Of a stretch of DNA of 64,000 bases, positions 23,352-52,556 are shown in pieces. Each line of letters begins with the position of its first letter. Positions within the stretch are counted from its first letter, which is position 1. The position numbers and the translations under genes are program-made. Origin of the DNA: a virus; IMG/VR virus record IMGVR_UViG_3300035169_000087, positions 35,072 to 99,071 of that record; one strand, 5' to 3'. The notes below the pieces were generated by a model. That model was not told the origin of the DNA. It did no database searches and saw only the letters and a list, made by a program, of their open reading frames with translations.

Positions 23352-23751
23352 GGCCGACGCCAAGCCGCCGATCGCCGCTGCGGTGGTTGTGCAGGACGGG
23401 ACGGTGCTGCTGGTGCGCCGCCGGGTCGCGGAGGGCACGCTGCTGTGGCAGCTGCCTGCGGGGGCGGTGGAGGACGGTGAGAGCCCGGAAGACGCTGCGG
23501 TGCGGGAAACCCTCGAGGAGACCGGCCTGAGCGTCGAGGCGGTGCGGATGCTCGGCCAGCGCACGCACCCGGCCACCGGCCGCGAAATGTCGTACTGGGC
23601 GTGCGAGGTCGTCGCGGGGCTGGCTACGGTCGCTGACCGCGACGAGTTGGACGCGGTCGCGTGGGTCGCGCTGGACGGGCTCGAGGCGCACGTCCCGGGC
23701 GGGTTCTTCGAGCCCGTACAGGAGTACCTGATCGCGGCACTGAAGCACTGA
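23335..23751 (+). CDS. Nudix hydrolase
   Basis: 138 aa, GTG start. The full Nudix box is present: GAVEDGESPEDAAVRETLEE followed by TGL, with all catalytic Glu and the Arg in place. N-terminal strand VAAAVVVQDGTVLLVRRR-like region fits the family. It should hydrolyse a nucleoside-diphosphate-linked compound; the substrate is unreadable. The overlap with the regulator-like gene suggests that gene senses the substrate or product. Confidence 0.9.
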   Translation: MTQPTEADAKPPIAAAVVVQDGTVLLVRRRVAEGTLLWQLPAGAVEDGESPEDAAVRETLEETGLSVEAVRMLGQRTHPATGREMSYWACEVVAGLATVADRDELDAVAWVALDGLEAHVPGGFFEPVQEYLIAALKH

Positions 23752-25354: not shown

Positions 25355-25675
25355 CTAGAGCGCCAGCGCCGAACGCAGTCCGGCCGCTACGCGCAGCATC
25401 GTGCCCGGCGTGAGCGCACCGCCGTCGCGTTTGACCTCGTCCGCGTACATGACGGCGATGTTGTCGCACAGGACCCGGCCGACCAGCGGGTCCTGCGGCG
25501 CGAGTTCGATGATGCTGTCGAGACGCGGCTTGGTCGTGGTCGTGATCCGTACCACTAGCGCGCTGCCCAGCCGGGCATTGCGCCCGTTGTTGCTCACAAC
25601 CAGGTACGGCTTGTCGCCGCGCCCCAGGTCGGCGTAGTAGATCCTGCCTCGGGTCAGTCCGGGGACTGCTGGCAA
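25355..25675 (-). CDS. mazF: MazF/PemK-family endoribonuclease toxin
   Basis: 106 aa from a TTG at 25675, 3 bases after the antitoxin stop; no better start exists. The core RGRIYYADLGRGDKPYLVVS, VVRITTTTKP and VLCDNIAVMYADEV matches the MazF barrel, in which RIYYADL and VVSN carry substrate-binding residues. It should cut mRNA at short sites when free of antitoxin. The adjacent upstream gene is the antitoxin candidate. Confidence 0.85.
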   Translation of the reverse strand: MPAVPGLTRGRIYYADLGRGDKPYLVVSNNGRNARLGSALVVRITTTTKPRLDSIIELAPQDPLVGRVLCDNIAVMYADEVKRDGGALTPGTMLRVAAGLRSALAL

Positions 25676-25678
25676 GGC

Positions 25679-25975
25679 TCAGTCCTCCGTGTCGCGCACG
25701 CGCTTGCGCATGGCGGCTTCGTAGGCGCGGTCCTCGTCGTCCTGCATGGCTGCCAGTGCCGCGTAGCCGTGGTCCTGTACGCGTTCCTTGACGGCGGTCA
25801 GGCCGAGGTGCAGGAGTGCCTGGAGGGTGGCTGCTTCGGAGCGGGTGGCGTCGGGGCCGGCGAGTTCGGTCAGGGCGTCGTGGACGGGCGTGCCGTCGGT
25901 GCGGGCTTGGGTGAGCGCGGCTTGTTCGTCGGGGGTGAGGGGGACGCTCTTGCGGATCGTTTCGGCGGCGGTCAT
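25679..25975 (-). CDS. mazE: Antitoxin of the MazF pair
   Basis: 98 aa, ATG start. A short N-terminal DNA-binding-like strand-helix part (TIRKSVPLTPDEQAAL) is followed by helices and an acidic C-terminus (DDEDRAYEAAMRKRV). It is immediately upstream of and probably cotranslated with the toxin. No strong family signature; the call rests on order, size and the operator repeats upstream. Confidence 0.7.
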   Translation of the reverse strand: MTAAETIRKSVPLTPDEQAALTQARTDGTPVHDALTELAGPDATRSEAATLQALLHLGLTAVKERVQDHGYAALAAMQDDEDRAYEAAMRKRVRDTED

Positions 25976-28540: not shown

Positions 28541-28863
28541 TGTCCACCGTCCAGGATTTCGAGTTCGGCGGGCGTGAACCAGTCGCGCCAGGTGATGCCG
28601 TCGTGGTGGCCGCTACTGCGATCGATCGGTTCGGGGACGGTTCCTCGTAGCCGGTCGGCGTCACGGCGGATCGAGCGGGCGAGTTGAGCCCACCACTGCG
28701 CCACCTCGCGGTGCGCTGCGGCGTAACCGGCATCTAGTCCGTCCGCGTAGCCCATGGCGTACTGCTCGGCTTCGTTCAGCGCGTTGACACGCAACCGCCC
28801 GAGCTCAGCCGCGACGTCCGTCGCCTCGACCACAACGCGCGGGCGATCGTCCAGTGCGGTCAC
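28537..28863 (-). CDS. Hypothetical protein
   Basis: 108 aa from GTG 28863 (GTGA overlap at both ends). Helical, with QYAMGYADGLDAGYAAAHRE and RSIRRDADRLRG; acidic ending WFTPAELEILDGG. Coupled between the GIY-YIG gene and the helicase, so possibly a replication accessory. Not assignable. Confidence 0.65.
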   Translation of the reverse strand: MTALDDRPRVVVEATDVAAELGRLRVNALNEAEQYAMGYADGLDAGYAAAHREVAQWWAQLARSIRRDADRLRGTVPEPIDRSSGHHDGITWRDWFTPAELEILDGGQ

Positions 28864-29708
28864 CATCCTCCCCTCCACCAGTAGCGCTGATCGAGACCCG
28901 CAGACTCCCGGATGTGCCCGCGCGCCAACAGGTAATGGAGCGTCTGGCGAACAGTCATCTCATCGACGCCGTACATCTGCTGAAGCTCAGCGACTGTAGG
29001 CAGGAATCCGTCGGGGAACCGCCGGGCGCGGATATCCCGTTTCAACGCCTCGGTCGTCTGCTGAAACCGGTCGTACCGCGAGCGTGTGACCACGTAGATC
29101 CTGCGCTTAGCTCGCGCCACGTGACTCGACGCGCCAACACGCGTGGCACCGTCGTCGTTGTACTCCGGCTGCTCAACAGCGATGACGCGGTCCTCCTCGG
29201 CCGCCGCCGAAAAGCGATCGTGATGCCATACGACTTCCCGCGTGGCGACCTCGCGCCACCAATACTGCGCGCGCTCGTGTTCGGTGAATCGCTTCTCGGG
29301 ATCGTCGCTTATCCCGACGTAGAGGAGGGCCCCCGACTCTGAGAACAGTCTGTAGACGGCAGTTGGCTTCGACTCGACCGACGCGCTGCGTTTTGGAACC
29401 CCAGAGGCTTGCGTGCGCCACGTGGGCGGGATGAGTAGCCGAAACCTGGTTGGCGGCCTCCAGTGGCACGGATGGGCCTTTGCCGCCGAGAAGTCCTCAG
29501 CCTCCACGAGTTCGGCCTTCGCCAAGGCTTCTAGGACGCTAAGGATTTCGCCCGCCGGGATCCCGCTCTCCTCGACGAGCGTGTAGCCGTGGAGTTGGCA
29601 TTCGTGCGTCTGCCCGTCAGCGCGGTCCGCGACGAGCAACAGCAGTGCCTTCGCCTCATAGGACGGGACCTCCTGCTGGCGCGCCCACTCCATCGCGTAT
29701 CGGCTCAC
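28860..29708 (-). CDS. GIY-YIG nuclease-like protein flanked by HTH domains
   Basis: 282 aa, GTG start. An N-terminal winged-helix-like part (ILSVLEALAKAELVEAEDF) precedes AVYRLFSESGALLYVGISDD, which carries the GIY-YIG-type strands and FTEHERAQYWW. The C-terminal part (TVAELQQMYGVDEMTVRQTL) is a GntR-like HTH. The domain is close to that of the 35106-36002 protein. Plausible role: sequence-guided DNA nicking or homing-type activity, inferred. Confidence 0.75.
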   Translation of the reverse strand: MSRYAMEWARQQEVPSYEAKALLLLVADRADGQTHECQLHGYTLVEESGIPAGEILSVLEALAKAELVEAEDFSAAKAHPCHWRPPTRFRLLIPPTWRTQASGVPKRSASVESKPTAVYRLFSESGALLYVGISDDPEKRFTEHERAQYWWREVATREVVWHHDRFSAAAEEDRVIAVEQPEYNDDGATRVGASSHVARAKRRIYVVTRSRYDRFQQTTEALKRDIRARRFPDGFLPTVAELQQMYGVDEMTVRQTLHYLLARGHIRESAGLDQRYWWRGGW

Positions 29709-29839: not shown

Positions 29840-30583
29840 ATGCCGGAGCGCCGCGCGAAGGCGCCGAAGTTCGAGCAGACCGCTGCGAGGATTCGGACAC
29901 GGATCAGATCCGGCGAGTTGAAACCGGGCGACAAGCTCCCCATGGAGGATGCCCTCGCCAAGCAGTACGAGGTCGCTAAACCGACCATGCGCGCCGCGCT
30001 GGCCGTGCTCGAACGCGAGGGGTTGATCGCGGCGAAGCGGGGGGTCGGATTCGTCGTCCGCTCCACGCACAAGATCAGGCGCAATGAGACGAAGCGCCTT
30101 CTGTCCAGCGTGTGGGGCGACGGCCGGTCCATGTGGGTCGAGGACATAGGCACGGTCCCGACCCCGAAGGATCTCGTTGTAGACCTTGTCGACGCTCCCC
30201 CGCATGTCGCGCAGATTCTTGGCCAGGGCAACGCGTGGGTGCGGGATCGTGGCTACGAAGTCGGCGACCAGGTCGTGCTGCTCGCCGCTTCGTATGTGCC
30301 GGAAGAGATCGCGGACGGCACGCTCATTACGCAGAAGGACACTGGGCCGGGAGGCACGTACGGGCGGCTCAAAGACGCCGGCCACGGACCCGTGCGCTTC
30401 GAGGTGGTGGTGGGCGCTCGGCCGCCGACGCGCGAGGAGACGCTGCGGCTCGGCGTGAGCCCGGCCGTGCCCATGATTACCGAGCTGCGTACGGCGTTCG
30501 ACGCAAGCGGCCGGGCAGTCGAAGTCAACGAGATGGTGCTGGACTCGACGGTCTTCACGCTGCAATTCGATATCACCGCCTAG
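29840..30583 (+). CDS. GntR/UTRA-family transcription regulator
   Basis: 247 aa from ATG 29840 after GAGGGGAG. N-terminal winged HTH: KFEQTAARIRTRIRSGELKP, YEVAKPTMRAALAVLEREGL, then a UTRA-type ligand domain (ITELRTAFDASGRAVEVNE). In actinomycete plasmids and AICEs, a GntR-type Kor protein represses transfer and spread genes, and this gene stands at the start of the matching block here. It likely represses itself and the 30731 operon through TAGGGA sites. Confidence 0.9.
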   Translation: MPERRAKAPKFEQTAARIRTRIRSGELKPGDKLPMEDALAKQYEVAKPTMRAALAVLEREGLIAAKRGVGFVVRSTHKIRRNETKRLLSSVWGDGRSMWVEDIGTVPTPKDLVVDLVDAPPHVAQILGQGNAWVRDRGYEVGDQVVLLAASYVPEEIADGTLITQKDTGPGGTYGRLKDAGHGPVRFEVVVGARPPTREETLRLGVSPAVPMITELRTAFDASGRAVEVNEMVLDSTVFTLQFDITA

Positions 30584-35105: not shown

Positions 35106-36002
35106 CTAACGCTTGGCGAGCCTCTCGAAGATCTTCACGGCGAGGACGCCACCCACCCCGCACGCAGCACCGACCTCGTCAACTGTGACCTGGCTGAAGA
35201 ACTGAGGGAAGTTGCTCAGGTTGACCACAGAGCACACGCCGATTCCAGAAATGGCAGCCCAGGCCGCTTGCCAGGTCGTCGGGGACGCCCCAATGTCGCC
35301 GAGCCTCAGGACGAACCGCTCCCTCGCCAACAGGTGGCTCCGGTCACGCCAGTCCTTCAACGCGGGCTCGGGACAGCCGTCCGCATTGTGGATGCTCAAC
35401 GTGAAGAACCCCGGCAGCAACTCGTAGTCCCAGGCCAGGATCCTGGCCGCGCGGCGATAGAGATCATCGATCGCGCCGAGATCCTTCATCGGCCCGCAGT
35501 TCCAGTAGCCGAGGTGCGGGATCTGCGGAAACCAGATCCGTACGCGCCCTCGCGAGGCTTGATCTTGCTGGTCCGCGCAGATGACCGCGGCATAGTGCGG
35601 GTTGGCGTCCCGCCAGGCCGTCCCGCCGCGCGGGTGCTTCATCGCGGACGCGAGCAGGCCAAGGCGCCATGGGCGTGGCTCGTGATTCCCCGGCGTGTCC
35701 GTGGCTTCCCGCCCGAGTCGCTGATCGTAGTCACGTCGCTTGTTGTGGATCGGGTTCTCGTACTTGATCGCGCAGTATTCCTCAATGGCCGCGCCGAGGC
35801 GCGAACTGTGCCAGACGACGGTCCGCCAGTGCACGTCACCCCACCATGGCTTGTCTCGCGCATGCTCCCGCCAGCGCCCATCGGTGTCGTATGCGATGCC
35901 CGCGTACAGCAGGCGCTCATCCCGGTTATAGAGCCGGTAGACCCCGGTTCGGCGGTCCGGCGCGCAGTGAAGCGAGTTGCACTTGCGCGTCATCAGGCCC
36001 AC
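35106..36002 (-). CDS. GIY-YIG domain protein
   Basis: 298 aa. The N-terminal GVYRLYNRDERLLYAGIAYD with WREHARDKPWW and TVVWHSSRLGAAIEEY matches the GIY-YIG core and is clearly paralogous to the domain in the 28860-29708 protein. GTG 36002 or ATG 35993 starts; neither has a good ribosome site. The C-terminus (GIGVCSVVNLSNFPQFFSQV) may be another small domain. A long open frame on the opposite strand is its shadow. Confidence 0.75.
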   Translation of the reverse strand: MGLMTRKCNSLHCAPDRRTGVYRLYNRDERLLYAGIAYDTDGRWREHARDKPWWGDVHWRTVVWHSSRLGAAIEEYCAIKYENPIHNKRRDYDQRLGREATDTPGNHEPRPWRLGLLASAMKHPRGGTAWRDANPHYAAVICADQQDQASRGRVRIWFPQIPHLGYWNCGPMKDLGAIDDLYRRAARILAWDYELLPGFFTLSIHNADGCPEPALKDWRDRSHLLARERFVLRLGDIGASPTTWQAAWAAISGIGVCSVVNLSNFPQFFSQVTVDEVGAACGVGGVLAVKIFERLAKR

Positions 36003-36029: not shown

Positions 36030-36290
36030 TCACTCGTCGGATGTGCGCCCCCCGGCGATCTGCTGGGCAGCGGAGCGGGAGATGCCCAGCTTCTGGGCGA
36101 CCTCGGCGTGCGACGCGCCCAGGGCGCGCATTTCCTGTACGCCGGACCTGCGGATTTCAGCGGCTTCGGGAATCGCCTCTTGGAGAGACCGGATGAGTTC
36201 CTGGGCGGCTTGCGCCCGCCGTTCCGGGTCTTCGATAGCGCGAACGGTATCGAGCATCCGCTCAATCTCCGATTCCCTGTTCGTCGCCAT
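36030..36290 (-). CDS. Small HTH protein
   Basis: 86 aa, ATG start. N-terminal coiled region (RESEIERMLDTVRAIEDPERR) and a C-terminal HTH (ASHAEVAQKLGISRSAAQQIAGG). Divergent from the DUF2637 gene at 36378 with a perfect palindrome between them, so it is the natural candidate to bind it. Confidence 0.8.
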   Translation of the reverse strand: MATNRESEIERMLDTVRAIEDPERRAQAAQELIRSLQEAIPEAAEIRRSGVQEMRALGASHAEVAQKLGISRSAAQQIAGGRTSDE

Positions 36291-36315: not shown

Positions 36316-36340
36316 TACTGTACAGCCACCCTGTACAGTA
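36316..36340. promoter_or_regulatory. Perfect inverted-repeat operator TACTGTACAG-N5-CTGTACAGTA
   Basis: The two 10-base arms (36316-36325 and 36331-36340) are exact reverse complements, and each contains the palindrome CTGTACAG. The element lies between the HTH gene (36290) and the DUF2637/FtsK operon (36378). It is a strong candidate operator for the transfer-type operon, possibly overlapping its promoter. Confidence 0.75.
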
Positions 36341-36377: not shown

Positions 36378-37286
36378 ATGGCACCCAAGAGCGCCGTTCC
36401 GATCGAAGTGCCAGCGTTCACGCGCTGGGCACTACGCATTGGCGGCGGTGCAGCCCTGGTCTGCGGCGCCATCCTCTCGTTCTTCGCGCTCTACGGGCTC
36501 GCCGTCATGAACGGCTGGCCCCGCTACATCGCCTGGGCGCTGCCCGGCAGCGTCGATGTGCTCACCGCTACCGCCGCAGTCGTCGCCATGTCCGTGCCGC
36601 GCGCGCACCGCGGCGCCAGCATCGCGCACTGGAGCGCCGCCGCGAGCCTTCTGATCACCGTCGGCTGCAACGTCGAGTTCCACGCGCTACTGCCGGCCAC
36701 CCGCTGGAGCATCGGGCACGTCTTCCTCGTCGCCACCGGCGCCGTGCCCGCGATCGTCGTCGAGCTGATCCTCGTGATGCAGATGTACCTCGGTGACGGC
36801 GCCGTCCTGGCCGGCGCCGACCACGCGCCCGTCGTCCAACCCAAGGCGCAGTCGTCCAAGAACGGCGCCGTCGGCCAGTCGTCCAAGAGCGCCGCGGCCG
36901 ACCGTGTGGACGGCCAGTCGTCCACGGCTGCGCCGGTCGAAGTCGTCCACGCGGACGACCTCCCGGCCGTCCAGAACGCTCCGTCGTCCACGCGAACCAT
37001 GGACGAGGACTCGTCCAACCAGGCGGCCACGGACGAGCAGGACGAGCTGATCGTCCAGATCGGCCGGACGGTCTACGAGGCGGTCAAGACCGAGCTCGGC
37101 AAGCGACCGCCGCAGCAGGCGTTCTGCGACGCGCTCGCCGCCGCCGCGGCGCCGCACGTCGATGCCGGGCGGCTACCGGAGACGTACCGCAGCCCGTCGA
37201 TCTCGACCGCCAAGCGCGTGCGCAAGGACGTCGAAGACCGATTTCCCGGGCTCTCGCCCCTGCACCTGATCCGGGCCGCATCATGA
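36378..37286 (+). CDS. SpdA-like/DUF2637 membrane protein
   Basis: 302 aa, ATG after AAAGGAG. The N-terminal half has about four hydrophobic helices (FTRWALRIGGGAALVCGAIL; IVVELILVMQMYLGDG). The C-terminal half is a Ser/Ala-rich linker and a helical module (IGRTVYEAVKTELGKRPPQQ). DUF2637 proteins accompany FtsK-type transfer genes in actinomycete plasmids and AICEs, where spread (Spd) proteins help intramycelial movement. It overlaps the FtsK gene by 4 bases. Confidence 0.85.
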   Translation: MAPKSAVPIEVPAFTRWALRIGGGAALVCGAILSFFALYGLAVMNGWPRYIAWALPGSVDVLTATAAVVAMSVPRAHRGASIAHWSAAASLLITVGCNVEFHALLPATRWSIGHVFLVATGAVPAIVVELILVMQMYLGDGAVLAGADHAPVVQPKAQSSKNGAVGQSSKSAAADRVDGQSSTAAPVEVVHADDLPAVQNAPSSTRTMDEDSSNQAATDEQDELIVQIGRTVYEAVKTELGKRPPQQAFCDALAAAAAPHVDAGRLPETYRSPSISTAKRVRKDVEDRFPGLSPLHLIRAAS

Positions 37287-39481
37287 GTACGCGCCGCACG
37301 GAAATCGATGTGATGCAACGCGGAGGAGAACACGATCGCCTCCCCGCGCATCGCGGACACGTCTCCCCCGGCTACCTTGCATCACGTCAAGCGGACATGA
37401 TCGAGGCGCTGCTGCCGCTGCCGCACTCCGCCGTCACCTACCGTCAGCCCCGCGAGCCGGTCCTCAAGCGGCTCGCCGAAGGGGCCGCAGACGGGCTGGT
37501 CGCGTACAAAGGCGTGCTGGTCACGCCGCTGATCACCGCGCCGGTCACGTTCGCCGGGGCGCTCACGCACAGTGGGACGCACCACGCACTGTTCGGCGGC
37601 CTGAGCCTCGCCGCGTCCGCGATCTTCGGTGCCGTGACCGCTGTCACCTCGCTCGCGCACATCACGAACGAAACGATGCCGCATCAGATCGCCACCGAAC
37701 GCGCGGGGCACGCAGGGAAGATCATCGCGACGGCGTTCGGGTTCATGGTCACATTCTTCGACTACGGCGCCGCAGCACTCTCAGCCCCGCTCTCCGGTCC
37801 CTCGTGGGGCGCCGCCGTCCTATCCACGCTCGGCATCGGCGGCGCCCTTGCCATGGCGATCCACGAGGAACGCTCCAACGGCCACGCCCGCGAAACCCAC
37901 CGCATCGAAGCCGTCGCCGACCTCGCGTCCGCCGTCAAAACCGTCCAGCCGCCCTCGTTCACCCCGCCGCCCATGGACGGCGTCAGCGTCCACCCGGTCG
38001 GTTCGCTGGTTGTGTGGGCGATGGCCGACAACGGCCTGCACGGCGCGAGCGTGGACGGCATGCCGGCGATCCTGGACGAGCGGCGCTGGACGGTCACGAT
38101 CAACCATCCGGGGATCTCCGTGCGGCGCGTGACCGCCAAGCTGGACGATCTGGCGTCCAGTCTGCGGGTCATCACCGGCGGGCTGCGTATCGCCCGCGGT
38201 GAGCATGAGCACCAGACCGTGTGGACGGTCAACAACACGCCCCTGGCTGAGATCGCGCCGGCCGGTGCGCACCCGATCACCGAACTGGACCCCGCGGCGC
38301 GCCTGTCGATCTGGGACGGGGTGCACCTCGGCGAGGACGACAACAACCGGCCGGTGGACGTGCGCCTGGCCGGCCGGGCCGGGATCTTCATCGCGGGCGC
38401 GCCGGGGTCCGGCAAGTCCAACGGTGTCGCCGCGGTCACGTGCACCGCGGTGGCCGCGCACGACGCGGAACTGTGGACGATCGACGGCGCCGGGCGTGAG
38501 TTGGCGATGTTCGACGCGGTGGCGCGCTACTCCACGCGGTTCGACATGGACGAGGCGATCGACCTGCTTTCGCTGCTGAAGGACGAGATGATCCGGCGCA
38601 GTGAAATCCTCGCGGGGCTCGGGGCGACGGAATTCACGCGGGAAATCGCGCACGAGCAGGGGATCAACGTCATTTTCTATGTGATCGGCGAGGTGTCGCA
38701 CTACACCGCGAACGACACCGAGCCGAAAGCCAAACGCAAGTTCAACTCGCTGCTGACGGATATCACCCCGCGGGGCCGGGCGAACGCGATGGTCGCGGTG
38801 CTCGACTCGCAGAAGCCGGAGGACCGGCTTATCCCGTCCGCTATCCGCGACCAGATCCCGCTGAAACTCGCCCTGAAGTGCGAGACGGAGGAGCAGGTCG
38901 TCACGATCCTGGGCCGCGGGATGCAGAAGCTGTGCCCGGCGCATCTGCTGCCGTTGGACGAGGAGGGCAAGAGCCTGGGGTTCGGGTATTTGAAGGGTGT
39001 TCCGGGCCGGGAGCCGTTCCGGATGCGTACGCGTCTGATCACCGCGGATGAGCGCAAGGCTGTGATCGCGGCGCGTGTCGCCGGCCGCGGTACCCCGCCG
39101 GAGGGCCCCGGTGGTGGCGCGCCCGAGCCGTCGGACGACGCGGGCTGGTCGCGTCCCGCCCGGCCGTCGTATCTGCGTGCGGTGCAGACGCCGCAGTTCC
39201 CGGACGGGCGGCGCGTGGACGACGACCGGGTGGCGCTGTGGAACGCCTTGGACCGTTTCCCGGGCGGCTTCACCTACAACGAAGTCGGTGAGCTGGCCGG
39301 CTCGCTCGGCATTCTCAACGGGCGTTCGGGGGTGCAGCGTCCGCTGGACAATTGGGGTCGGTCCGGGTACCTGGTGAAGATCGGCACGCGTTCGGGTGCG
39401 GCCGGGCAGGCGCCGGCTGTGTGGCGCAAGGCCACCCATGAGGAGTTCAAGGCGGGCAGCGGCGAGAGGCAGGCCGGGTGA
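37283..39481 (+). CDS. FtsK/SpoIIIE-type DNA translocase (Tra-like)
   Basis: 732 aa. N-terminal hydrophobic region, then an ATPase core with Walker A GAPGSGKS (Lys378), LWTIDGAGRELAMFD, YVIGEVSHYTAN and LDSQKPEDRLIP. This motor drives double-stranded DNA through membranes, as TraSA/TraB proteins do in Streptomyces mycelial transfer. A C-terminal winged HTH (DRFPGGFTYNEVGELAG) resembles the DNA-recognition end. Coupled to the DUF2637 gene. Confidence 0.9.
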   Translation: MSTRRTEIDVMQRGGEHDRLPAHRGHVSPGYLASRQADMIEALLPLPHSAVTYRQPREPVLKRLAEGAADGLVAYKGVLVTPLITAPVTFAGALTHSGTHHALFGGLSLAASAIFGAVTAVTSLAHITNETMPHQIATERAGHAGKIIATAFGFMVTFFDYGAAALSAPLSGPSWGAAVLSTLGIGGALAMAIHEERSNGHARETHRIEAVADLASAVKTVQPPSFTPPPMDGVSVHPVGSLVVWAMADNGLHGASVDGMPAILDERRWTVTINHPGISVRRVTAKLDDLASSLRVITGGLRIARGEHEHQTVWTVNNTPLAEIAPAGAHPITELDPAARLSIWDGVHLGEDDNNRPVDVRLAGRAGIFIAGAPGSGKSNGVAAVTCTAVAAHDAELWTIDGAGRELAMFDAVARYSTRFDMDEAIDLLSLLKDEMIRRSEILAGLGATEFTREIAHEQGINVIFYVIGEVSHYTANDTEPKAKRKFNSLLTDITPRGRANAMVAVLDSQKPEDRLIPSAIRDQIPLKLALKCETEEQVVTILGRGMQKLCPAHLLPLDEEGKSLGFGYLKGVPGREPFRMRTRLITADERKAVIAARVAGRGTPPEGPGGGAPEPSDDAGWSRPARPSYLRAVQTPQFPDGRRVDDDRVALWNALDRFPGGFTYNEVGELAGSLGILNGRSGVQRPLDNWGRSGYLVKIGTRSGAAGQAPAVWRKATHEEFKAGSGERQAG

Positions 39482-39906
39482 TGGGGCGGCGTAAGCGCAA
39501 GGGCCTGTTCGCGATCCTGTTCCCGGAGCTCCATAAGGCGGTCCGCAGGGCGGCGCACGACATGCGTCCAGACCGTGCCATCGGCAGGATGATGAGCGTT
39601 CCGGAGTTGAAATCCGGTGTCCGCCCGCTTGTCGGCACCCGCACCACGCATGTGACCGGTGAGACCCGTAAGAAGCAGGTTACCGGTGTGCAGCGCAAGC
39701 AGACCGCGGCGGCCAACAAGGCGACCCGGAAGATCCAGCCGCGTGGTACCGGGAAGGCCGTGGTGACGAAGCGGAACAAGCGCGGCCAGTTCGACAGCGT
39801 CAAGGCGATGAGCCCGCACGAGCTGGCCGCTTATGAGCGCGCGGTCGCCAAGGGTGAAACCCCGCCGCCTGCGGTGCGCTGGGCGGGTACGCGCCGCGCC
39901 GGCTGA
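39481..39906 (+). CDS. Basic hypothetical protein
   Basis: 141 aa from ATG 39481 (TGATG overlap with the translocase). Highly basic, rich in Lys/Arg/Thr (GETRKKQVTGVQRKQTAAAN), pI clearly high, probably nucleic-acid binding. Linked to the translocase by position. Confidence 0.65.
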   Translation: MGRRKRKGLFAILFPELHKAVRRAAHDMRPDRAIGRMMSVPELKSGVRPLVGTRTTHVTGETRKKQVTGVQRKQTAAANKATRKIQPRGTGKAVVTKRNKRGQFDSVKAMSPHELAAYERAVAKGETPPPAVRWAGTRRAG

Positions 39907-43730: not shown

Positions 43731-43949
43731 ATGCAGAACATCACGATCGAACGCTACGGCGAGCACGAAGCGAAGAACTCCGTCACCGGCGAGGGCTTCT
43801 CCGCGTGTATCTCCGGCCAGGACGACACCGGCGCGGGCTGGGTGTTCTGGCTGGATGAGACCGGCCGCCCGTGCGTGTACTTCCCGAACCGGGAGCCGTC
43901 TGGCGCGGTGCTCGAGCCGCAGATCTCGCTGCTTCCGGTAGCGGCCTGA
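43731..43949 (+). CDS. Small hypothetical protein
   Basis: 72 aa, ATG with GAAGGA upstream. Beta-rich (SVTGEGFSACISGQDDTGAG; FWLDETGRPCVYFPN). Set apart by terminator-like structures on both sides, so it has its own transcript. Unknown. Confidence 0.6.
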   Translation: MQNITIERYGEHEAKNSVTGEGFSACISGQDDTGAGWVFWLDETGRPCVYFPNREPSGAVLEPQISLLPVAA

Positions 43950-43957
43950 CCGAAACC

Positions 43958-44071
43958 TCCGGCCGCCCCGCCCGCGGCCGGATCTTCTCCGCGCCGCGTA
44001 CCGAGGGACGCGCGGCGCGGAGCTCCAACTTCCGGCGCGCGAAATTCACGGACGTCGGACGCGCGCCGGAA
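43958..44071 (+). other. Three consecutive perfect hairpins
   Basis: Hairpin a: TCCGGCCGC (43958-43966)/GCGGCCGGA (43974-43982). Hairpin b: CTCCGCGCCGCG (43987-43998)/CGCGGCGCGGAG (44011-44022). Hairpin c: TTCCGGCGCGC (44030-44040)/GCGCGCCGGAA (44061-44071). They fill the 140 bases between 43949 and 44091. Possible strong terminator, structured leader or processing site ahead of the late block. Confidence 0.6.
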
Positions 44072-44090
44072 CACAACGCCGGGAGGTGCC

Positions 44091-44432
44091 GTGACCGGGC
44101 TCGCCCCTGAGCGTGCGGACCGCGCCATCGCCCGCGTCCTCGCAGGCGGACTCGACGACTGGCACGACATCACCGCCACCGCCGTGCAGTACGCCAGCCG
44201 CACCGGCAACAGCTACCAGCGCGAGGTCCGCATCGACGCCACCTCGGCCGACTACTCCAACCCCACGCTCGCCGTCCCCTTCGAAGCATGCGACCGCGTA
44301 CCGGCCATCGGCGAGCCCGCGTTCATCTACGCGCCCGAAGGTGCCGAAAGCCGCGCGGTCATCACCGGCATCGACGAGGACAGGCGACTCGTCCGGTTCG
44401 ACCCGTTGCCGTGGGACCCGCCGCCCGAGTAA
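44091..44432 (+). CDS. Hypothetical protein
   Basis: 113 aa, GTG after GGGAGGTGCC. Strand-rich (AVQYASRTGNSYQREVRID; ALAVPFEACDRVP-like). First gene after the hairpin cluster; starts a rightward run that continues to the tail fibre. Unknown. Confidence 0.6.
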   Translation: MTGLAPERADRAIARVLAGGLDDWHDITATAVQYASRTGNSYQREVRIDATSADYSNPTLAVPFEACDRVPAIGEPAFIYAPEGAESRAVITGIDEDRRLVRFDPLPWDPPPE

Positions 44433-44491
44433 CGACAGGAACCACGATCAGCACCACCCTCACCGCCGTCCGACCAGCCGGGGACGCGACC

Positions 44492-44686
44492 GTGACCACA
44501 TACCGGCCACCCAGACTCGGCGACCTCATCCACGTGCGCATCGGCGACGGCGACGAACACTCCACTCTGCTGCAAACCGTCGGCGACGACGGCAAGACCC
44601 TCACCCTGACCGGCCCGACCCCGCACGGCGACCTTCGTGTCGTCATCCGCCGCGTCGACCGGTACCTCACCCCGCTGGAGACCTGA
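44492..44686 (+). CDS. Small hypothetical protein
   Basis: 64 aa from GTG 44492. The frame is open upstream to the previous stop and a better-looking start just after AGGAACC would need an ATC codon, so the start is uncertain. Strand-rich (PRLGDLIHVRIGDGDEHS; KTLTLTGPTPHGDLRV). Overlaps the next gene by one base. Confidence 0.5.
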   Translation: MTTYRPPRLGDLIHVRIGDGDEHSTLLQTVGDDGKTLTLTGPTPHGDLRVVIRRVDRYLTPLET

Positions 44687-45015
44687 TGTCCCTCCCCAAG
44701 ACCGCCGAGACCAAGGCCGAGCAGCTTTGGGCCGACCTGAAGGCCGACGGCCACCACCTCGCCGAGCGGGCGAAGGAGATCCTCGACGAGCTGCGCGGTG
44801 ACGCCCCGAAGCTCGAAGCCGAAGCCGCAGCGGACGCCGCCGACGTGGCCCACACCGCCGAAACGCAGGGCGTACAGCCCGCGATCGCCGAGGCCGAGCA
44901 CGACGGCGTGACCCTCGCCGAAGACACCGGACACGACGTGGCCGCAGCCGTCGAAGGACCGGCGAAGACCGAGACTGCGCCGACTGAGGCCCCGGCGAGC
45001 GAGCCGACCGCGTGA
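44686..45015 (+). CDS. Ala/Glu-rich helical protein
   Basis: 109 aa, ATG in a one-base overlap. Helical and acidic (ETKAEQLWADLKADGHHLAE; AEAAADAADVAHTAETQG), a low-complexity coiled protein. Possibly structural or scaffold-like; not assignable. Confidence 0.55.
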   Translation: MSLPKTAETKAEQLWADLKADGHHLAERAKEILDELRGDAPKLEAEAAADAADVAHTAETQGVQPAIAEAEHDGVTLAEDTGHDVAAAVEGPAKTETAPTEAPASEPTA

Positions 45016-45314
45016 GCGCCCCAACTCCCAGCGTCGGCCGCGTAGTCCACTACGTCTCGTACGGCACCCCAGGCGGCGAATACACCAGCGAATGCCGGGC
45101 CGCCATCGTCACCGCCGTAGACGACGGCGTCACCACGCTGCTCGACCTGGACGTCACCGGCAGCGGCGAGATCACCCGCGCGCAGACGCAAGGCACGCCG
45201 ACCGTCAGCCTGTGCGTCCTGAATCCGGCCGGCCTGTTCTTCAACCAGGGCGTCAAGCAGGACGAAACCGGCCACGCGGGCGGCAGTTGGCACTGGCCGG
45301 AGAGGGTGGCCTGA
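45012..45314 (+). CDS. Hypothetical phage protein
   Basis: 100 aa, GTG in a GTGA overlap. GRVVHYVSYGTPGGEYTSEC and the ending AGLFFNQGVKQDE-GGSWHWPE look like a recurrent small actinophage protein (recollection, not checked). Function unknown. Confidence 0.65.
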   Translation: MSAPTPSVGRVVHYVSYGTPGGEYTSECRAAIVTAVDDGVTTLLDLDVTGSGEITRAQTQGTPTVSLCVLNPAGLFFNQGVKQDETGHAGGSWHWPERVA

Positions 45315-45475
45315 TGCTGTTCGCGATCCTCGCTGCCGTCACTGCGGGAGTCGGCTTCGTCCTCAACGGCGTCGGCGCACACACCAGCCCCTGGCTCTCC
45401 CCGACCGGGTTGCTCCTGGCCGCCGTCGCACTCCTTGCGCTGCACTTCGCCGGCGTCGGCCCGCGCAAACCGTGA
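45314..45475 (+). CDS. Small two-helix membrane protein (holin-like size)
   Basis: 53 aa, ATG overlapping the upstream stop by one base. Two hydrophobic segments (LFAILAAVTAGVGFVLNG; LLLAAVALLALHFAGVG). Location next to a C40-like peptidase gene is compatible with lysis, but there is no specific holin signature. Confidence 0.5.
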   Translation: MLFAILAAVTAGVGFVLNGVGAHTSPWLSPTGLLLAAVALLALHFAGVGPRKP

Positions 45476-45603
45476 ACGTCACCGGCGGCTGCTGTCCGGT
45501 CTTCATCAGCGAGCCGGGCGCACGCATCCGACGCCTCAACTGCTGCCCCACGCACGGAGGTGGCGCATGTCCCTCTACGAACCGGGCCGCTACATCTGCG
45601 TAG
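45472..45603 (+). CDS. Possible Cys-rich small protein
   Basis: 43 aa, GTG in a GTGA overlap. Two CC pairs (TGGCCPVFISEP; RLNCCPTHGG) and another Cys. It overlaps the next gene by 37 bases, so one of the two may use a different start. Confidence 0.4.
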   Translation: MNVTGGCCPVFISEPGARIRRLNCCPTHGGGACPSTNRAATSA

Positions 45604-46073
45604 GCGGCAAGGGCTTCGTCCCCCGCGTCATCGAAATCGCGACCCGCAGCAAATTCGCGCACGTCGTCATGGTCGAAACCCGCGACGGCGGCATCATCGA
45701 GGCCATGCCCGGCGGCGTACGGCGCGCCCACATCAGCCAATACGCCGGACTGCCCGCGTGCAGCAACCTCGCCGAACGCATGACCGCCACCCAGCAGGCG
45801 CAGATCCTCACCGCCGCACAAGGCATGATCGGCGTTCCGTACAACGACCTCGCGATAGCCGACGACGCGCTCGAATCCCTCGGTGTCGTGTGGAAGTGGT
45901 TCGCGAACCTCGCCAACGGCGACCACGAAGTGATCTGTAGCCAAGCGGTATCAATGTGGGGCGCGGCGGCCGGGCTCGACTGGTCCTGCGGCAAACGCGA
46001 CCTGTGCGAAGTCACCCCGGCGAACCTCGCCAAGCGGCCGTGGACGGTCTCCATCGACATCGAGACCGCGTAG
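45567..46073 (+). CDS. YiiX/NlpC-P60-like permuted papain-fold protein
   Basis: 168 aa, ATG after CGGAGG. GRYICVGGKGFVPRVIEIAT, SKFAHVVMVETRDGG with a conserved His and then VICSQAVSMWG with a Cys: the His-before-Cys order of YiiX-type C40 relatives. Such proteins cut peptidoglycan peptides or act as amidases. In this place it could serve lysis or virion cell-wall penetration. Confidence 0.7.
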   Translation: MSLYEPGRYICVGGKGFVPRVIEIATRSKFAHVVMVETRDGGIIEAMPGGVRRAHISQYAGLPACSNLAERMTATQQAQILTAAQGMIGVPYNDLAIADDALESLGVVWKWFANLANGDHEVICSQAVSMWGAAAGLDWSCGKRDLCEVTPANLAKRPWTVSIDIETA

Positions 46074-46091
46074 CCGGGACGGGGGCCGCTC

Positions 46092-46460
46092 GTGACGCTG
46101 GCCAACACCTGGAACTGGCAGATCCCCGTCGGCGCGCAATCCGCCGCGAGCTTCCAGATCGAAAACCCCGACGGCTCCCCCTACCCGATCACCGGAGCGA
46201 CCTGGGAGTTCGTGGTGCGCTCCGCCGCGGCAGGCGGCAGCGCCCTAGTGTTCTCGGTCACCACCAGCGCGAACGCGAGCGGGCTGCTGACCGTCACCAC
46301 GTCGCCGACCTCCACCGTCGCGCTCACTCTTTACCCCGCGGCCACCGCGGCCCTGGCGCCGGGCAGCTACTCGATGGCGCTGTGGATGGACCCCGGCACC
46401 ACCGGCGCGCTGCTGTGGGTCACCGGGACGCTCGGCGTCACCGCGGTCGCCCAACCGTAG
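46092..46460 (+). CDS. Baseplate/fibre-associated beta protein, candidate
   Basis: 122 aa, GTG. Beta-rich (QSAASFQIENPDGSPYPIT; GATWEFVVRSAAAGG), similar in pattern to the N-terminal domain of phage baseplate upper proteins (BppU). It precedes the fibre-like gene by 10 bases. Function inferred from position and pattern. Confidence 0.55.
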   Translation: MTLANTWNWQIPVGAQSAASFQIENPDGSPYPITGATWEFVVRSAAAGGSALVFSVTTSANASGLLTVTTSPTSTVALTLYPAATAALAPGSYSMALWMDPGTTGALLWVTGTLGVTAVAQP

Positions 46461-46470
46461 GGGGTGCCCG

Positions 46471-48432
46471 GTGTCGCAGCCGACCGTGATCGTGCAGCAG
46501 GTCAACCCGCTCGTGATCGCGTCGGCGGCCGGGGCCCAAGGACCGCAGGGCCCGTCCGGCGGTGGCGGCGGAAGCGCCCTGGCGCGCACGGGCGTGAAGA
46601 CCGGCAACTACACGGCAGCAGCCGGGGACCTGGTTCCGGTCGACACCACCAGCCAGGCCGTCACGATCGCCCTGCCGTCCGCGCCGCCGGACAAGACGCA
46701 GGTCGCCGTGGAACTGGTCACTCAAGGCGGCAGCAACGCCGTGACGGTCGCGTGCTCCGGCAGCGACGTGCTGTCGAAAACCGGCGGACCCACCAGTCTC
46801 GCCCTGCCGCTACTCGGTCAGGCCGCGTGGCTCGAATACACCGCGGCCGGCGCCATCTGGACGCCGCTGTCCATCGGCTACCAGCTCGCGGCGCTCGACG
46901 CCCGATACGACGCCACCGGCGCCGCGTCGGCGGCCCTGACCGCGGCTGAAGCCAACGCCGCAGCCACGTACGTGCCGCTCTCGGCCGAGGGCGCCCCCAA
47001 CGGCGTCGCCACCCTCGACGGTTCGGGTCATCTGACAGCGGCGCAAGCGGCGAACTTAGTCGACCTGAGCGCCAATCAGTCCGTCGGCGGCACCAAGGCG
47101 TTCACCAGCCCCCCGACCGCGCCGAGCCCCGTCGGCTCTACGGACCTGGTCAACAAGGCATACGCCGACTCCATCGCCCAGGGCCTCTCGGTCAAACCCT
47201 CCGCGCGGCTGGCCACCACCGCAGCGCTGCCCGCGAACACGTACAACAACGGCGCGTCCGGACTCGGCGCGACCCTGACCGCCACCGCCACCGGCGTGCT
47301 GAGCGTCGACGGTCAGGCCGTGGCCGCAGGCGACCGCATCCTCGTGCAGAACGAGGCCGCGCCCGCGAACAACGGCCTGTACCAGTGCACTGCCGCCGGG
47401 GGCGTCGGCGTCGCCTACGTCCTCACGCGCACCCTCGACATGGACCTTGCCGTCCAGATCCCCGGCGCGTTCGTGTTCGTCGAGCAAGGCAGCGTCAACG
47501 CAGCCGCCGGGTTCGTGGTCGCAGGCGCCGGGCCCTACGTCATCGGAACCACCGCGATGACGTGGACGCAGTTCTCCGGCGCGGGCGAGATCCTGGCCGG
47601 GCACGGCCTGACCAAGACCGGCAACACGCTCGCGCTGGCCGCTCCCGTCGCCGCGAGCGACCTGCCGAGCCTCGACCAGCTCACCGCGCCAGCCAGTGCG
47701 CTCAGCCTCAACAGCCAGAAAGTCACGTCGCTCGCCAACGGGACACTGGCCACCGACGCCGCCGCGTTCGGGCAGATCCCCGTCGCCGGGGCCACTGCCG
47801 GGACGTATGCGGCCGGCAACGACTCGCGCGTCACCGGGGCCGCACAGAAGAGCGCGAACCTCAGCGACCTGGGCAACATCCCCGCCGCGCGCACCGCCCT
47901 GGGCCTGGGCACGCAGGCGCAGCAGAACTTCGGCACCCCCACCGGCGCCCTCGCCGAGATCATCACGCCCTGGAACTGCAACACCTCCGGCGGCTCACCC
48001 CTGACCGCGGGCGTCCTGATCCTCAACCTGATCCGGCCCGGCCCGATCCTGGTCACCAACCTCGCGATCTGGATCACCCTCGCCGGGATCACCGCCAACG
48101 GCGTCAACGCCCTCGCGCTCTACGACGAGAGCGCGACCCTGATCGACCAGACCGGCGACATGTCCGCGCAGTTCGCGACCCTCGGCCTCGCTGAGGCGCC
48201 GCTGGGGGCGCAACACCAACTCGCCGCGAACACGAACTACTACATCGGGGTCCTCGCGCACTTCTCCGGCACGACGCCGAAAGCCGCCTCGTCACTCGCG
48301 GGCGTCACGATCCCGGTGATGCGCGGGCACTACCTGTCGCTGACCAAATCGAGCATCGCGTCGTTCCCGGCGAGTTTCACCCCGTCCACGTACGCCACCT
48401 CGACCGCGGCGTACGCGATGCAGATGAGCTGA
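46471..48432 (+). CDS. Tail fibre/receptor-binding-like protein
   Basis: 653 aa, GTG. An N-terminal collagen-like GAQGPQGPSGGGGG stretch, long Ala/Ser/Thr-rich shaft, repeated LTDAAAFGQIP-type and NLSDLGNIPAARTALGLG segments characteristic of fibre shafts, and a beta-rich C-terminal part that should face the host. The gene is upstream of the terminase instead of downstream of the tail genes, an unusual place. Confidence 0.8.
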   Translation: MSQPTVIVQQVNPLVIASAAGAQGPQGPSGGGGGSALARTGVKTGNYTAAAGDLVPVDTTSQAVTIALPSAPPDKTQVAVELVTQGGSNAVTVACSGSDVLSKTGGPTSLALPLLGQAAWLEYTAAGAIWTPLSIGYQLAALDARYDATGAASAALTAAEANAAATYVPLSAEGAPNGVATLDGSGHLTAAQAANLVDLSANQSVGGTKAFTSPPTAPSPVGSTDLVNKAYADSIAQGLSVKPSARLATTAALPANTYNNGASGLGATLTATATGVLSVDGQAVAAGDRILVQNEAAPANNGLYQCTAAGGVGVAYVLTRTLDMDLAVQIPGAFVFVEQGSVNAAAGFVVAGAGPYVIGTTAMTWTQFSGAGEILAGHGLTKTGNTLALAAPVAASDLPSLDQLTAPASALSLNSQKVTSLANGTLATDAAAFGQIPVAGATAGTYAAGNDSRVTGAAQKSANLSDLGNIPAARTALGLGTQAQQNFGTPTGALAEIITPWNCNTSGGSPLTAGVLILNLIRPGPILVTNLAIWITLAGITANGVNALALYDESATLIDQTGDMSAQFATLGLAEAPLGAQHQLAANTNYYIGVLAHFSGTTPKAASSLAGVTIPVMRGHYLSLTKSSIASFPASFTPSTYATSTAAYAMQMS

Positions 48433-48445
48433 GGGGGTAGCCGCG

Positions 48446-49096
48446 ATGACCGACACGCTCCAGGACGCCCCGCTCGGGGTGTGCGCGTGCGGGCAGCCCA
48501 ACGAGGGCGCCTACCAGCGGCACCTCGCCCAGGCCGAGTACGACGCGCTACCGGACGAGCTCAAGCCAATCGACGGGTACGCCGTCACCGCCGTACACGC
48601 CTGCGGGGACTGCCTACCCGACCCGATCTGCGCCCACCCCGACGAAGGCCCCGTGCCGTGCCCGGTCTGCCACGCCGAACCCGGTGCGCAGTGCACGAAG
48701 CCCGACGGCAGCCCCCGCCCGGTCGGACATCGCGAACGCGCCGCCGCACAACCCCGGCCGGACACGTGCACCCACGCCCACCGCGAGGACTGCACCAGCC
48801 CCGACGCCTGCCAGTGCTCCGGCGACGACCAGCCGCCCGCACGGCTACCCCGCGTCATCCTGCCGCCCACCCAGCAGCAGATCCTCACCGACCTGGGTGT
48901 GGCGCCCGCGATGCTCGCCCGCGCCGTCGAACTGATCGCGCAGCGCGGCATCGACCCGACCCGGGTGCGCGGCGGATTCCGCACCGGGCTCACCCAGGAC
49001 AACCGGCCGGCGATCCTCTTCGACTACGCGGTCGGCACCGACGCGCACGGCCGCGAACAAACCGAGACGCGCATCGAACCCATCGAAGTACCGTGA
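48446..49096 (+). CDS. Cys-rich zinc-finger protein
   Basis: 216 aa, ATG. CACGQPN, CGDCLPDP, then CPVCHAEPGAQCTKPDGSP followed by HRERAA: the CxxC-PGxxC-H pattern common in small actinophage zinc proteins. A helical C-terminal half follows. Overlaps the ParB/MTase gene by 4 bases. Role unknown. Confidence 0.7.
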   Translation: MTDTLQDAPLGVCACGQPNEGAYQRHLAQAEYDALPDELKPIDGYAVTAVHACGDCLPDPICAHPDEGPVPCPVCHAEPGAQCTKPDGSPRPVGHRERAAAQPRPDTCTHAHREDCTSPDACQCSGDDQPPARLPRVILPPTQQQILTDLGVAPAMLARAVELIAQRGIDPTRVRGGFRTGLTQDNRPAILFDYAVGTDAHGREQTETRIEPIEVP

Positions 49097-50340
49097 CCGC
49101 CGCACCAGCCGCCTACCTCGCAACCCGCGACATCCCACTCGACGAACTCACCCCGTTCCCCGGAAACGCCAAACGCGGCGACGTCGAAGCCATCCGCGCA
49201 TCCCTGCGCCGCAACGGCCAGTACCGCTCGCTCATCGTGCGGGAAATCCCCAACGGCCCGCTGATCGTCCTCGCGGGCAACCACACCATGCAGGCACTCG
49301 CCGCCGAAGGCCACGCCGCGGCGCGCTGCGAGATCGTCCAATGCGACGACGCCACCGCACGGCGTATCAACCTCGCCGACAACCGCACCGCCGAACTCGG
49401 CACCTACGACGACGACGCGCTCGCCGAACTCATCACCGCGCTCGACGGCGACTACGACGGCACCGGATACGCACAGGACGACATAGACGCGATCCTCAAC
49501 CAAAACGAGGAACTGCCCGCAGTCCTCAGTGACCCGGACGACGTACCCGATACGCCTACCCGGCCCGTCAGCGCACCCGGAGACGTATGGTGCCTCGGCC
49601 CGCACCGCGTCCTATGCGGCGACTCCACCGACATCGCCGCCGTCGAAACCATGCTCGACGGCGACCGCTGCGACTGCATGTGGACCGACCCGCCCTACGG
49701 CGTGAACTACGTCGGCAAGACCGCCGACGCCCTCACCATCGAGAACGACGGTGCCGGGAACCTGCCGGAACTCCTCGCTGGCGCCTTCGCCGTCGCAACC
49801 GCCGCGCTCACCCCAGGCGCAGCGGTATACATAGCGCACCCGCCGGGTGCGCTATCGAAGACCTTCCGGGACTCATTCGACGAAGCCGGATGGTCGTACC
49901 GGCAGGGCCTCGTCTGGGTCAAGGACACACTCGTACTCGGGCGCTCCGACTACCACTACCGGCACGAACCGATCATGTACGGGTTCACCGATGGCGGCGA
50001 AGGCCGCCGGGGACGCGGCGGCGAGAACTGGCACGGCGACAACGCGCAAACCAGCGTCTTCGAGATCCCGAAACCGCCGCGCAACCAAGAGCACCCGACC
50101 ATGAAGCCCGTGGAACTCGTCACCCGGTGCCTCAGCAACTCCACCGCCCCTGGCGCCCGGGTATACGAGCCGTTCGGCGGTAGCGGGACCACGCTGATAG
50201 CGGCCCACACGATCGGGCGCATCGCACGCGTCGTCGAACCGGCATCAAGCCGATACTCGCCTCAACAGGCCAGCCACACGACTTCACCTAGCCAGCGTTC
50301 GCCGAACGCATGGAAAGCCGAACGCGCCAACAGGGGGTGA
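49093..50340 (+). CDS. ParB-nuclease-domain/DNA methyltransferase fusion with altered C-terminus
   Basis: 415 aa, GTG in a GTGA overlap. N-terminal ParB-like domain (LDELTPFPGNAKRGDVEAI; VLAGNHTMQALAAEGH), then a beta-class MTase with TDPPYGVNYVGK (motif IV) and a motif I segment YEPFGGSGTTL late in the chain. From about 50240 the frame leaves the expected ending; another frame reads TGIKPILASTGQPHDFT and stops at 50291. That suggests an out-of-frame deletion near the C-terminus. Common phage gene next to terminase. Confidence 0.8.
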   Translation: MTAAPAAYLATRDIPLDELTPFPGNAKRGDVEAIRASLRRNGQYRSLIVREIPNGPLIVLAGNHTMQALAAEGHAAARCEIVQCDDATARRINLADNRTAELGTYDDDALAELITALDGDYDGTGYAQDDIDAILNQNEELPAVLSDPDDVPDTPTRPVSAPGDVWCLGPHRVLCGDSTDIAAVETMLDGDRCDCMWTDPPYGVNYVGKTADALTIENDGAGNLPELLAGAFAVATAALTPGAAVYIAHPPGALSKTFRDSFDEAGWSYRQGLVWVKDTLVLGRSDYHYRHEPIMYGFTDGGEGRRGRGGENWHGDNAQTSVFEIPKPPRNQEHPTMKPVELVTRCLSNSTAPGARVYEPFGGSGTTLIAAHTIGRIARVVEPASSRYSPQQASHTTSPSQRSPNAWKAERANRG

Positions 50341-50343
50341 GCG

Positions 50344-50859
50344 ATGCCGCGCCGCCGCTCCCCCGAAACCATGGAGAAGGACGCCAGGGCCTACGACCTG
50401 TTCCGTCGCGGCCTGTCCTACCGGCAGATCGCCACGGAAATCGGCTACGCGAGCACCGGCACCGCATTCGAGGCCGTGCGCCGCGCCGCGAAGGAATCCA
50501 CCAGCGACGCACTCAAGGACGCCGAAGCGACACAGGCATTCCTCGACCGGTTCCAGGACTACCGGCGCGCCGCCCAGCGAGTCCTATCCACCCGGCACTT
50601 CGTCACCACCCAAGGCGGCAAGCTCGTTACCGGCCTGGATGGGCAGCCGCTCATCGACGACGATCCGGTGCTGCGCGCGCTCGACCGCCTACTGAAGATC
50701 GACGACACCGAGCTGCGGCTACGCGACCTGTACCCGGCGGCGAAGTCCCGCGTCGAAGTTATCACCGAAGACGCAGTCGATGCCGAGTGCGCCAAGCTCA
50801 TCGAGGAGATCCAGGAGCGGGAGCGTGAAGCCGCCGCTACTGATCCAAGCGCCGCCTGA
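50344..50859 (+). CDS. Terminase small subunit-like protein
   Basis: 171 aa, ATG. N-terminal HTH-like region (RRGLSYRQIATEIGYASTGT) and a long helical C-terminal part (YRRAAQRVLSTRHFVT). By position, size and domain it should recognise the packaging site and partner the large subunit, whose gene it overlaps by 35 bases. Confidence 0.75.
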   Translation: MPRRRSPETMEKDARAYDLFRRGLSYRQIATEIGYASTGTAFEAVRRAAKESTSDALKDAEATQAFLDRFQDYRRAAQRVLSTRHFVTTQGGKLVTGLDGQPLIDDDPVLRALDRLLKIDDTELRLRDLYPAAKSRVEVITEDAVDAECAKLIEEIQEREREAAATDPSAA

Positions 50860-52339: not shown

Positions 52340-52349
52340 GGAGTCCACG

Positions 52350-52556
52350 ATGTTGATGCCTCGCAGGCTCGGCGGCAGTTTCGGTGCGACCAGCGGCTTG
52401 TTCCGGGTGCTGCTGTGCCGGGCCGGCGGACGCGGGTTCTGTGGCGCGCACTGGACCGCGAACGACTCGCACGCCCTCGCGGATCATCTGCGTGAGCGCG
52501 GCGTCCACGAGGCGATCTGTAGCAGCGGCGCGCTGAACGGCGTCCCGGTCACCTAG
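52350..52556 (+). CDS. Small hypothetical protein
   Basis: 68 aa from ATG 52350 after GAGGAG. RVLLCRAGGRGFCGAHWTAN with two Cys and a His may bind metal. Sits between terminase and portal. Unknown. Confidence 0.6.
   Translation: MLMPRRLGGSFGATSGLFRVLLCRAGGRGFCGAHWTANDSHALADHLRERGVHEAICSSGALNGVPVT

Follow-up and report, generated by a model that had tools for sequence, protein, structure and literature searches.

A putative TraB/SpdB2-type DNA transfer module in a closed and apparently integrative temperate actinophage

According to PMC4170104, the plasmid translocase TraB assembles at clt on 8-bp repeats, the TraB recognition sequences (TRS), and moves double-stranded DNA (dsDNA), and SpdB2 of plasmid pSVH1 interacts with TraB. 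The element pZL12 has been reported (PMC4487206, PMC3583192) to be a plasmid-phage whose transfer locus has been characterised, and a 2020 survey describes it as a singleton among extrachromosomal actinophages (PMC7157519). Actinomycete integrative and conjugative elements (AICEs) are recognised by an integrase (Int), a transfer protein (Tra) and a replicase (Rep) of the RepSA, RepAM or Prim-Pol type (Ghinet et al., 2011, PMC3218068). Here we analyse the virus record IMGVR_UViG_3300035169_000087 (99,071 bp), whose bases 35072-99071 form the 64,000-nucleotide window to which the positions below refer. In this window a DUF2637 gene and an FtsK-type gene (36378-39481) accompany phage packaging and tail genes. 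We read the element, with a probability of about 0.6, as an integrative temperate actinophage that has acquired an AICE/plasmid-type TraB/SpdB2 module for dsDNA transfer. Homology of the module to the transfer modules of actinobacterial plasmids and AICEs is well supported by protein comparison, and a function in DNA transfer is predicted from it.

The DUF2637/FtsK gene pair

Both open reading frames proposed by the first-pass annotation, a model's reading of the letters, were confirmed at their positions. The second of them (37283-39481, + strand), whose start codon region overlaps the stop of the DUF2637 gene, encodes a predicted TraB-like FtsK/SpoIIIE dsDNA translocase of 732 aa, composed of N-terminal hydrophobic segments, a motor with an intact Walker A motif (GAPGSGKS) and a C-terminal winged helix. 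It matches Pfam FtsK_SpoIIIE (5.4e-13) and PHROG_1358 (1.7e-26), and it scores 6.4e-9 against NCBIfam plasmid_TraB, which is under the equivalog cut-off, so that it does not belong to the same equivalog as plasmid_TraB. The closest protein found by phmmer, with the C-terminal domain included in the match, is the FtsK encoded by a circular plasmid of Streptomyces zaomyceticus, 125 kb in size (2.2e-27), followed by those of pFP11 (2.6e-25) and pSVH1 (TraB, 9e-24), and overall 34 plasmid records (31 from Streptomyces) were matched versus 4 phage records, in agreement with the plasmid/AICE signature recognised earlier. The last 120 residues are predicted to form a winged helix (HHH-EE), with a predicted local distance difference test score (pLDDT) of 82-89 in most core blocks; fold matches in the PDB were mostly winged-helix proteins, all of them weak and none below 0.001. 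A C-terminal winged helix is reported for TraB as well. A full-length structure model built from two sequences reached a mean pLDDT of 31 and was not used. Single-protein scans of viral contigs and genome contigs with this FtsK returned no relatives, and among Streptomycetaceae a homolog at 1e-10 or better was present in 36 of 150 genomes, the best at only 1.3e-26; thus, no close donor of the gene was found.

The upstream gene (36378-37286, + strand) encodes a 302-aa protein of probable SpdB2 type, with an N-terminal hydrophobic, transmembrane domain, a linker and a C-terminal helix-turn-helix (HTH)-like segment. In addition to the Pfam DUF2637 model, whose score is weighed below, the assignment draws on the transmembrane segments, on a hidden Markov model (HMM) that we derived from ten further members of phages and plasmids, for which this product was the sole match in the predicted proteome of the contig (E 3.7e-6), and on the C-terminal segment, which can be aligned with those of other phage members and of plasmid proteins at the SpdB2 position. 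A tblastn search of plasmids with the protein gave no DUF2637 match. The gene had been labelled SpdA; its positional counterparts in pSVH1 and pFP11 are SpdB2 or DUF2637 genes, so that the label should be replaced. The spd-type neighbour (DUF2637/SpdB2) of TraB/AICE-type modules is therefore present beside the FtsK of the window.

The pair had also been described as led by a GntR regulator. The GntR/UTRA gene (29840-30583, + strand; Pfam GntR 4.6e-19, UTRA 1.2e-13) lies 5.8 kb and more than 10 predicted genes upstream, and thus does not lead it. The nearest regulator candidate is a small divergent HTH gene (36030-36290, - strand; 86 aa; PHROG_686 8e-5, with weak matches to HTH_23 and sigma-70 r4). 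Between it and the DUF2637 gene there is a perfect 10-bp inverted repeat, TACTGTACAG-N5-CTGTACAGTA (36316-36340), a candidate operator whose 8-mer CTGTACAG is found at no other site of the contig. To judge from gene order, this layout resembles that of the divergent regulator of plasmid modules. Downstream, a called gene for a 141-aa protein (39481-39906, + strand), without a match in NCBIfam, starts in overlap with the FtsK stop and is a possible member of the module.

Relatives of the element were collected through the terminase (viral contigs and prophages), and 46 such records were scanned for DUF2637. The domain was found over the Pfam cut-off in five of them, four of which also contain an FtsK over the cut-off, and in the records G003, G004, G020 and G029 the two genes are separated by a few genes on the same strand. 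The cultured strain Glycomyces tenuis DSM 44171 carries a chromosomal prophage (G024, 67.6 kb) that has exact 44-bp copies of the tRNA-Lys 3' end at its two boundaries, with the integrase at one end and, near the opposite end, DUF2637 and an FtsK-size gene, the product of which aligns with the FtsK set yet reaches no family cut-off. On gene content, the co-occurrence of DUF2637 and FtsK thus recurs in several terminase relatives, more than by chance. The motors themselves appear to differ. Indeed, single-sequence phmmer established no link between the FtsK of the window and those of G003, G004, G020 and G029, and the G003 protein matches plasmid_TraB over nearly its full length (1.5e-129); different motor types have therefore become associated with related phages. 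The G020 record (L101) has a size of 61.5 kb and an exact 127-bp end repeat; its DUF2637-FtsK module has a divergently oriented GntR gene and, close by, a resolvase-type (serine) integrase-like open reading frame.

An 8-bp repeat cluster in the DUF2637 gene

A scan for same-strand 8-mer clusters, run blind on contigs and plasmids, returned as the top cluster of the whole 99-kb contig six copies of GTCGTCCA within 160 bp (36831-36990, + strand), located inside the DUF2637 gene and distributed over two reading frames. Six of the seven forward copies of the entire contig fall in this interval. Dinucleotide shuffles of the whole contig yielded a maximum of 3, rarely 4, copies, and synonymous-codon resampling of the DUF2637 gene yielded GTCGTCCA 0.7 times on average and 4 times at most, with some 8-mer reaching 6 copies in 9 of 2000 resamples. 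Applied to pSVH1, the same scan recovers four copies of GACCCGGA directly after traB, the known TRS of this plasmid. Among the relatives, the top clusters of G004 (127 kb) and G029 (23 kb) again fall within DUF2637 and occupy two reading frames, G004 having additional intergenic copies, and a cluster in the DUF2637 gene of G003 ties for the top. No convincing cluster was obtained in the 8-mer scan of G020 and of the S. zaomyceticus plasmid, and in pZL12 the top cluster is away from its FtsK. The repeats are a candidate clt-like cis site, which either the FtsK, as a TRS, or the C-terminal domain of the DUF2637 protein might read.

The FtsK proteins of the viral contigs L247-L252 share 66-67% identity with the one encoded by G029. 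Across this set their C-terminus hardly changes, whereas the DUF2637 genes carry different repeats, which covary with the C-terminus of the DUF2637 protein, suggesting that the HTH-like segment of the latter, rather than FtsK, may read the cluster. This weakens the view of each cluster as the TRS of its FtsK. In the window there is also no intergenic gap directly behind FtsK, where clt canonically follows traB, which speaks against the preferred reading of the element. A binding array for the C-terminal domain of the DUF2637 protein itself, or in part a by-product of amino-acid repeats, is a contender at somewhat less than even odds. Wherever the cluster is strong in phages, it is located in the DUF2637 gene; some clusters (that in the coiled coil of G003, and L249) mostly keep one frame, and the resampled genes hold up to 4 copies of the word, with some 8-mer at 6 copies in 9 of 2000. 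Against this stand the use of two frames in the window, G004 and G029, the intergenic copies of G004, and a pattern that resembles the pSVH1 clt, even though its position differs. The contigs L247-L252 (21-175 kb) share a conserved five-gene operon comprising DUF2637, genes for proteins of ~190 aa, ~500 aa and ~122 aa, and an FtsK of ~755 aa.

Nature of the element and competing readings

The two ends of the record are identical at 156 of 158 bases (record 1-158 versus window 63843-64000) within the tail tube gene (62984-64000, + strand; Phage_tube_2, 4e-16), and once joined they give the full element as a circle of ~98.9 kb. In IMG/VR the record is classed as linear; the two mismatches would keep the ends from being recognised as an exact repeat, which would account for this listing despite circularity. 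An assembly chimera of phage with plasmid or AICE sequence, or a location of the two parts on different replicons, had been named as what would undo the first proposal. The source is a metagenomic contig and the FtsK has no close relative among those found, but the end overlap falls in a single tail gene and closes the record as one circle, another contig of 9,988 bp matches 43810-53794 at 100% over 9,985 bp, although it does not span the module, and further contigs show the same set of genes together, as does one isolate genome with the G. tenuis chromosomal prophage. A chimera was therefore rejected as extremely improbable, and the evidence points to one replicon.

The first-pass annotation had listed terminase, portal, capsid and tail genes in the same window. 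In addition to the tail tube, we identified the large terminase subunit (50825-52339, + strand; PHROG_38 1.2e-98, Terminase_6C 1.2e-15) and a portal/MuF fusion (52632-55445, + strand; PHROG_2662 1.6e-90), whereas the major capsid gene is assigned from its position only, probably to 57622-59367 (+ strand), the product of which matches a family of unknown function (phrog_13692, 2e-86). The packaging region near the terminase also includes a gene whose product joins a ParB-like domain to a DNA methyltransferase (49093-50340, + strand; PHROG_498 4e-104, PHROG_723 8e-46). Outside the window, the record encodes a tape measure protein, an endolysin, a tyrosine integrase (PHROG_1, 3.5e-49), a cI-like HTH protein as repressor candidate, an excisionase-like HTH protein, and the replication and recombination proteins exonuclease VIII, RecT, initiator and DnaB. 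Just 5' of the integrase gene, a single-copy stretch of 26 bp reproduces exactly the end (3') of the actinobacterial tRNA-Leu(GAG) gene and forms the phage attachment site (attP); of 297 genomes sampled from the class Actinomycetes, 213 contain it with at most one mismatch. A six-frame search for a ParA-type Walker motif found none. Among the proteins scanned, which are part of the proteome, neither a plasmid Rep nor a RepSA/RepAM/Prim-Pol replicase of AICEs was recognised, and the replication genes are exclusively phage-type, with a D5-type primase and a phage-type initiator. The tyrosine integrase, the tRNA-Leu attP, the repressor candidate and the lack of a ParA motif make the element look like an integrating temperate phage.

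We propose that excision at the tRNA-Leu attP, or a replication phase, would supply a phage circle for transfer, and that the FtsK-type motor would assemble, along with the DUF2637 protein, at the septal or hyphal-tip membrane. Its C-terminal winged helix might load the motor onto the circle at the cis site, and the motor could then pump the intact circle into a neighbouring compartment or a recipient hypha, providing the phage with a second, receptor-independent spreading route besides virions. In this scheme we infer where the motor sits (septum or tip), that it transfers DNA, that the cluster serves for loading, and when this happens. Several observations speak against this interpretation. 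The FtsK is only remotely related to characterised TraB (~25% identity, in the motor region), and its Walker-B region reads VIGEV, in which the usual Asp is replaced by Gly and the Glu is retained, so that motor activity is uncertain. The DUF2637 gene stays below the Pfam cut-off (5.6e-4; 20.3 bits versus 22.8). In addition, Streptomyces prunicolor has the terminase and, 22 kb away, a DUF2637 gene, yet no FtsK relative was found by any FtsK query in the 80 kb examined; together with the five positive records out of 46, this makes the co-occurrence recurrent but sporadic.

The proposal in the first-pass annotation was a phage-plasmid. The union of phage genes and transfer module on one closed circle has held up; a plasmid state has not, given the integrase, the tRNA-Leu attP and the missing ParA. 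In its strict form, with the prophage as an autonomous circular plasmid like pZL12 that is both packaged and conjugated, this reading is unlikely. It would be consistent with the circle, the TraB-type module, a MazF/PemK toxin gene, the location of the nearest FtsK on a circular Streptomyces plasmid with portal, major capsid and integrase genes, and the joint presence of FtsK, ParAB and phage genes on pZL12. Nevertheless, virion or excised phage DNA would also give a circle, which on its own does not show a plasmid prophage, no plasmid Rep was recognised among the proteins scanned, and one relative is chromosomally integrated. A more plausible competitor, still doubtful, is that the module acts within one mycelium only, carrying phage DNA through the septa of vegetative growth or of sporulation in a Spd-like spreading and not to other individuals. 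A reference in PMC4170104 links SpdB2 of pSVH1 to intramycelial spreading, motors of the FtsK/SpoIIIE family act at septa, and this scheme would require neither a surface factor nor a mating factor; since the same TraB performs transfer in characterised plasmids, spreading and transfer are not easily separated.

It is quite improbable that the phage keeps the FtsK-type protein as a moron for a different task, for instance the handling of host DNA or a function like that of type VII secretion system ATPases, its likeness to Tra proteins reflecting no more than shared motor ancestry. PHROGs classes such proteins as morons, the Walker B is altered, and Quantum and similar lytic Streptomyces phages possess FtsK-like genes without an annotated DUF2637 neighbour. 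In contrast, the DUF2637 gene is linked to the motor in plasmid-like order, the matches to plasmid TraB are stronger than those to phage FtsK, and the linkage recurs with different motor types. The reading as an integrative phage with an acquired transfer module is thus preferred. A wider proposal, which we put forward tentatively, is that a group of integrating temperate actinophages spreads in two independent ways, by virions and by TraB-driven passage of the intact double-stranded circle across septa or hyphal tips, with the transfer site inside the partner gene, different plasmid/AICE motors having been taken up several times.

Other features of the window were recorded. The MazF/PemK-type toxin gene (25355-25975, - strand; Pfam 3.3e-10), a plasmid-like stability feature, is preceded by a small partner gene whose family is unknown. 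Two genes encode GIY-YIG-type endonucleases (28860-29693 and 35106-36002, both - strand), one of them joined to an HTH/initiator-like N-terminus. A Ro60/TROVE-like protein with an intein and a LAGLIDADG domain is encoded at 13497-13861 and 13918-16770, and directly upstream of it there are three tRNA T-arm-like motifs ~140 bp apart, which ARAGORN does not call as tRNAs; one of them matches Rfam YrlA with an E of 3.1e-6, below the gathering score. From sequence and position, these motifs are possibly Y RNAs of the phage, for which the Ro60/TROVE-like protein would be the Ro partner. Finally, an adjacent pair of NUDIX-type genes (22695-23751) has a look-alike, by N-terminal sequence, in the relative G004 (L100 17809-18892).

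Comparison with known systems

In the literature searched, the coverage of which was incomplete, no report was found of an integrating phage with such a module, of its recurrence or of the repeat cluster. The data suggest that temperate phages which integrate into the genomes of several actinobacterial hosts also carry a module of the pZL12 type, its motor being of different types. Should it be functional, prophages could spread through mycelia in soil with no need of a receptor or of lysis, and they would escape AICE surveys in which a plasmid-type Rep is required. A testable question is also raised, namely which protein binds the 8-bp repeats in the DUF2637 gene.

The gene order GntR ... DUF2637/SpdB2 - (small gene) - FtsK is found in pFP11, pSTS2, pSVH1 and others. 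With pSVH1, pFP11, pSTS2 and pSG5 the window element shares the succession of a DUF2637/SpdB2-position gene and an FtsK gene, a homologous motor, and an SpdB2-type protein made of a membrane part and a C-terminal HTH-like part. It differs from them in that their GntR gene is divergent and close, its place being taken here by the small HTH gene, and in that the pSVH1 repeats follow traB directly, whereas those of the phage are within the DUF2637 gene. AICEs likewise combine an integrase, a tRNA att site and a Tra of FtsK/SpoIIIE type; unlike them, the element has a full phage packaging and tail set, a size of ~99 kb and, among the proteins scanned, no recognised replicase of the types used to define AICEs. 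The G. tenuis prophage resembles it in its related terminase (56%), its integrase at a tRNA and its DUF2637 and FtsK-size genes, and differs in a motor too diverged for Pfam and NCBIfam, a smaller size and integration at tRNA-Lys.

The S. zaomyceticus NBC_00415 plasmid (NZ_CP107934) is similar in being circular, in having annotated integrase, portal and major capsid genes and in carrying the closest FtsK, although this shows 28.5% identity, no DUF2637 is annotated beside it and the record is that of a plasmid. Among the phage genes of this plasmid (L182 12339-25700) there is a very large gene (~4,450 aa, with a UvrD-helicase domain). The closest precedent in general design is pZL12/phiZL12 (GQ919031), in which phage structural genes, an integrase-like gene, an FtsK-type gene and a GntR gene are likewise placed on one circular element of ~90 kb. 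Its FtsK is not matched by that of the window in phmmer at 1e-3, pZL12.73c, near this FtsK, has no Pfam DUF2637 match, and pZL12 encodes ParA/ParB and lives as a plasmid, whereas the phage described here has a tRNA-Leu attP and no detected ParA. A conjugative phage-plasmid was thus already known in pZL12, and to this the present analysis adds an integrating form that carries the module, its recurrence among related phages and the repeat cluster.

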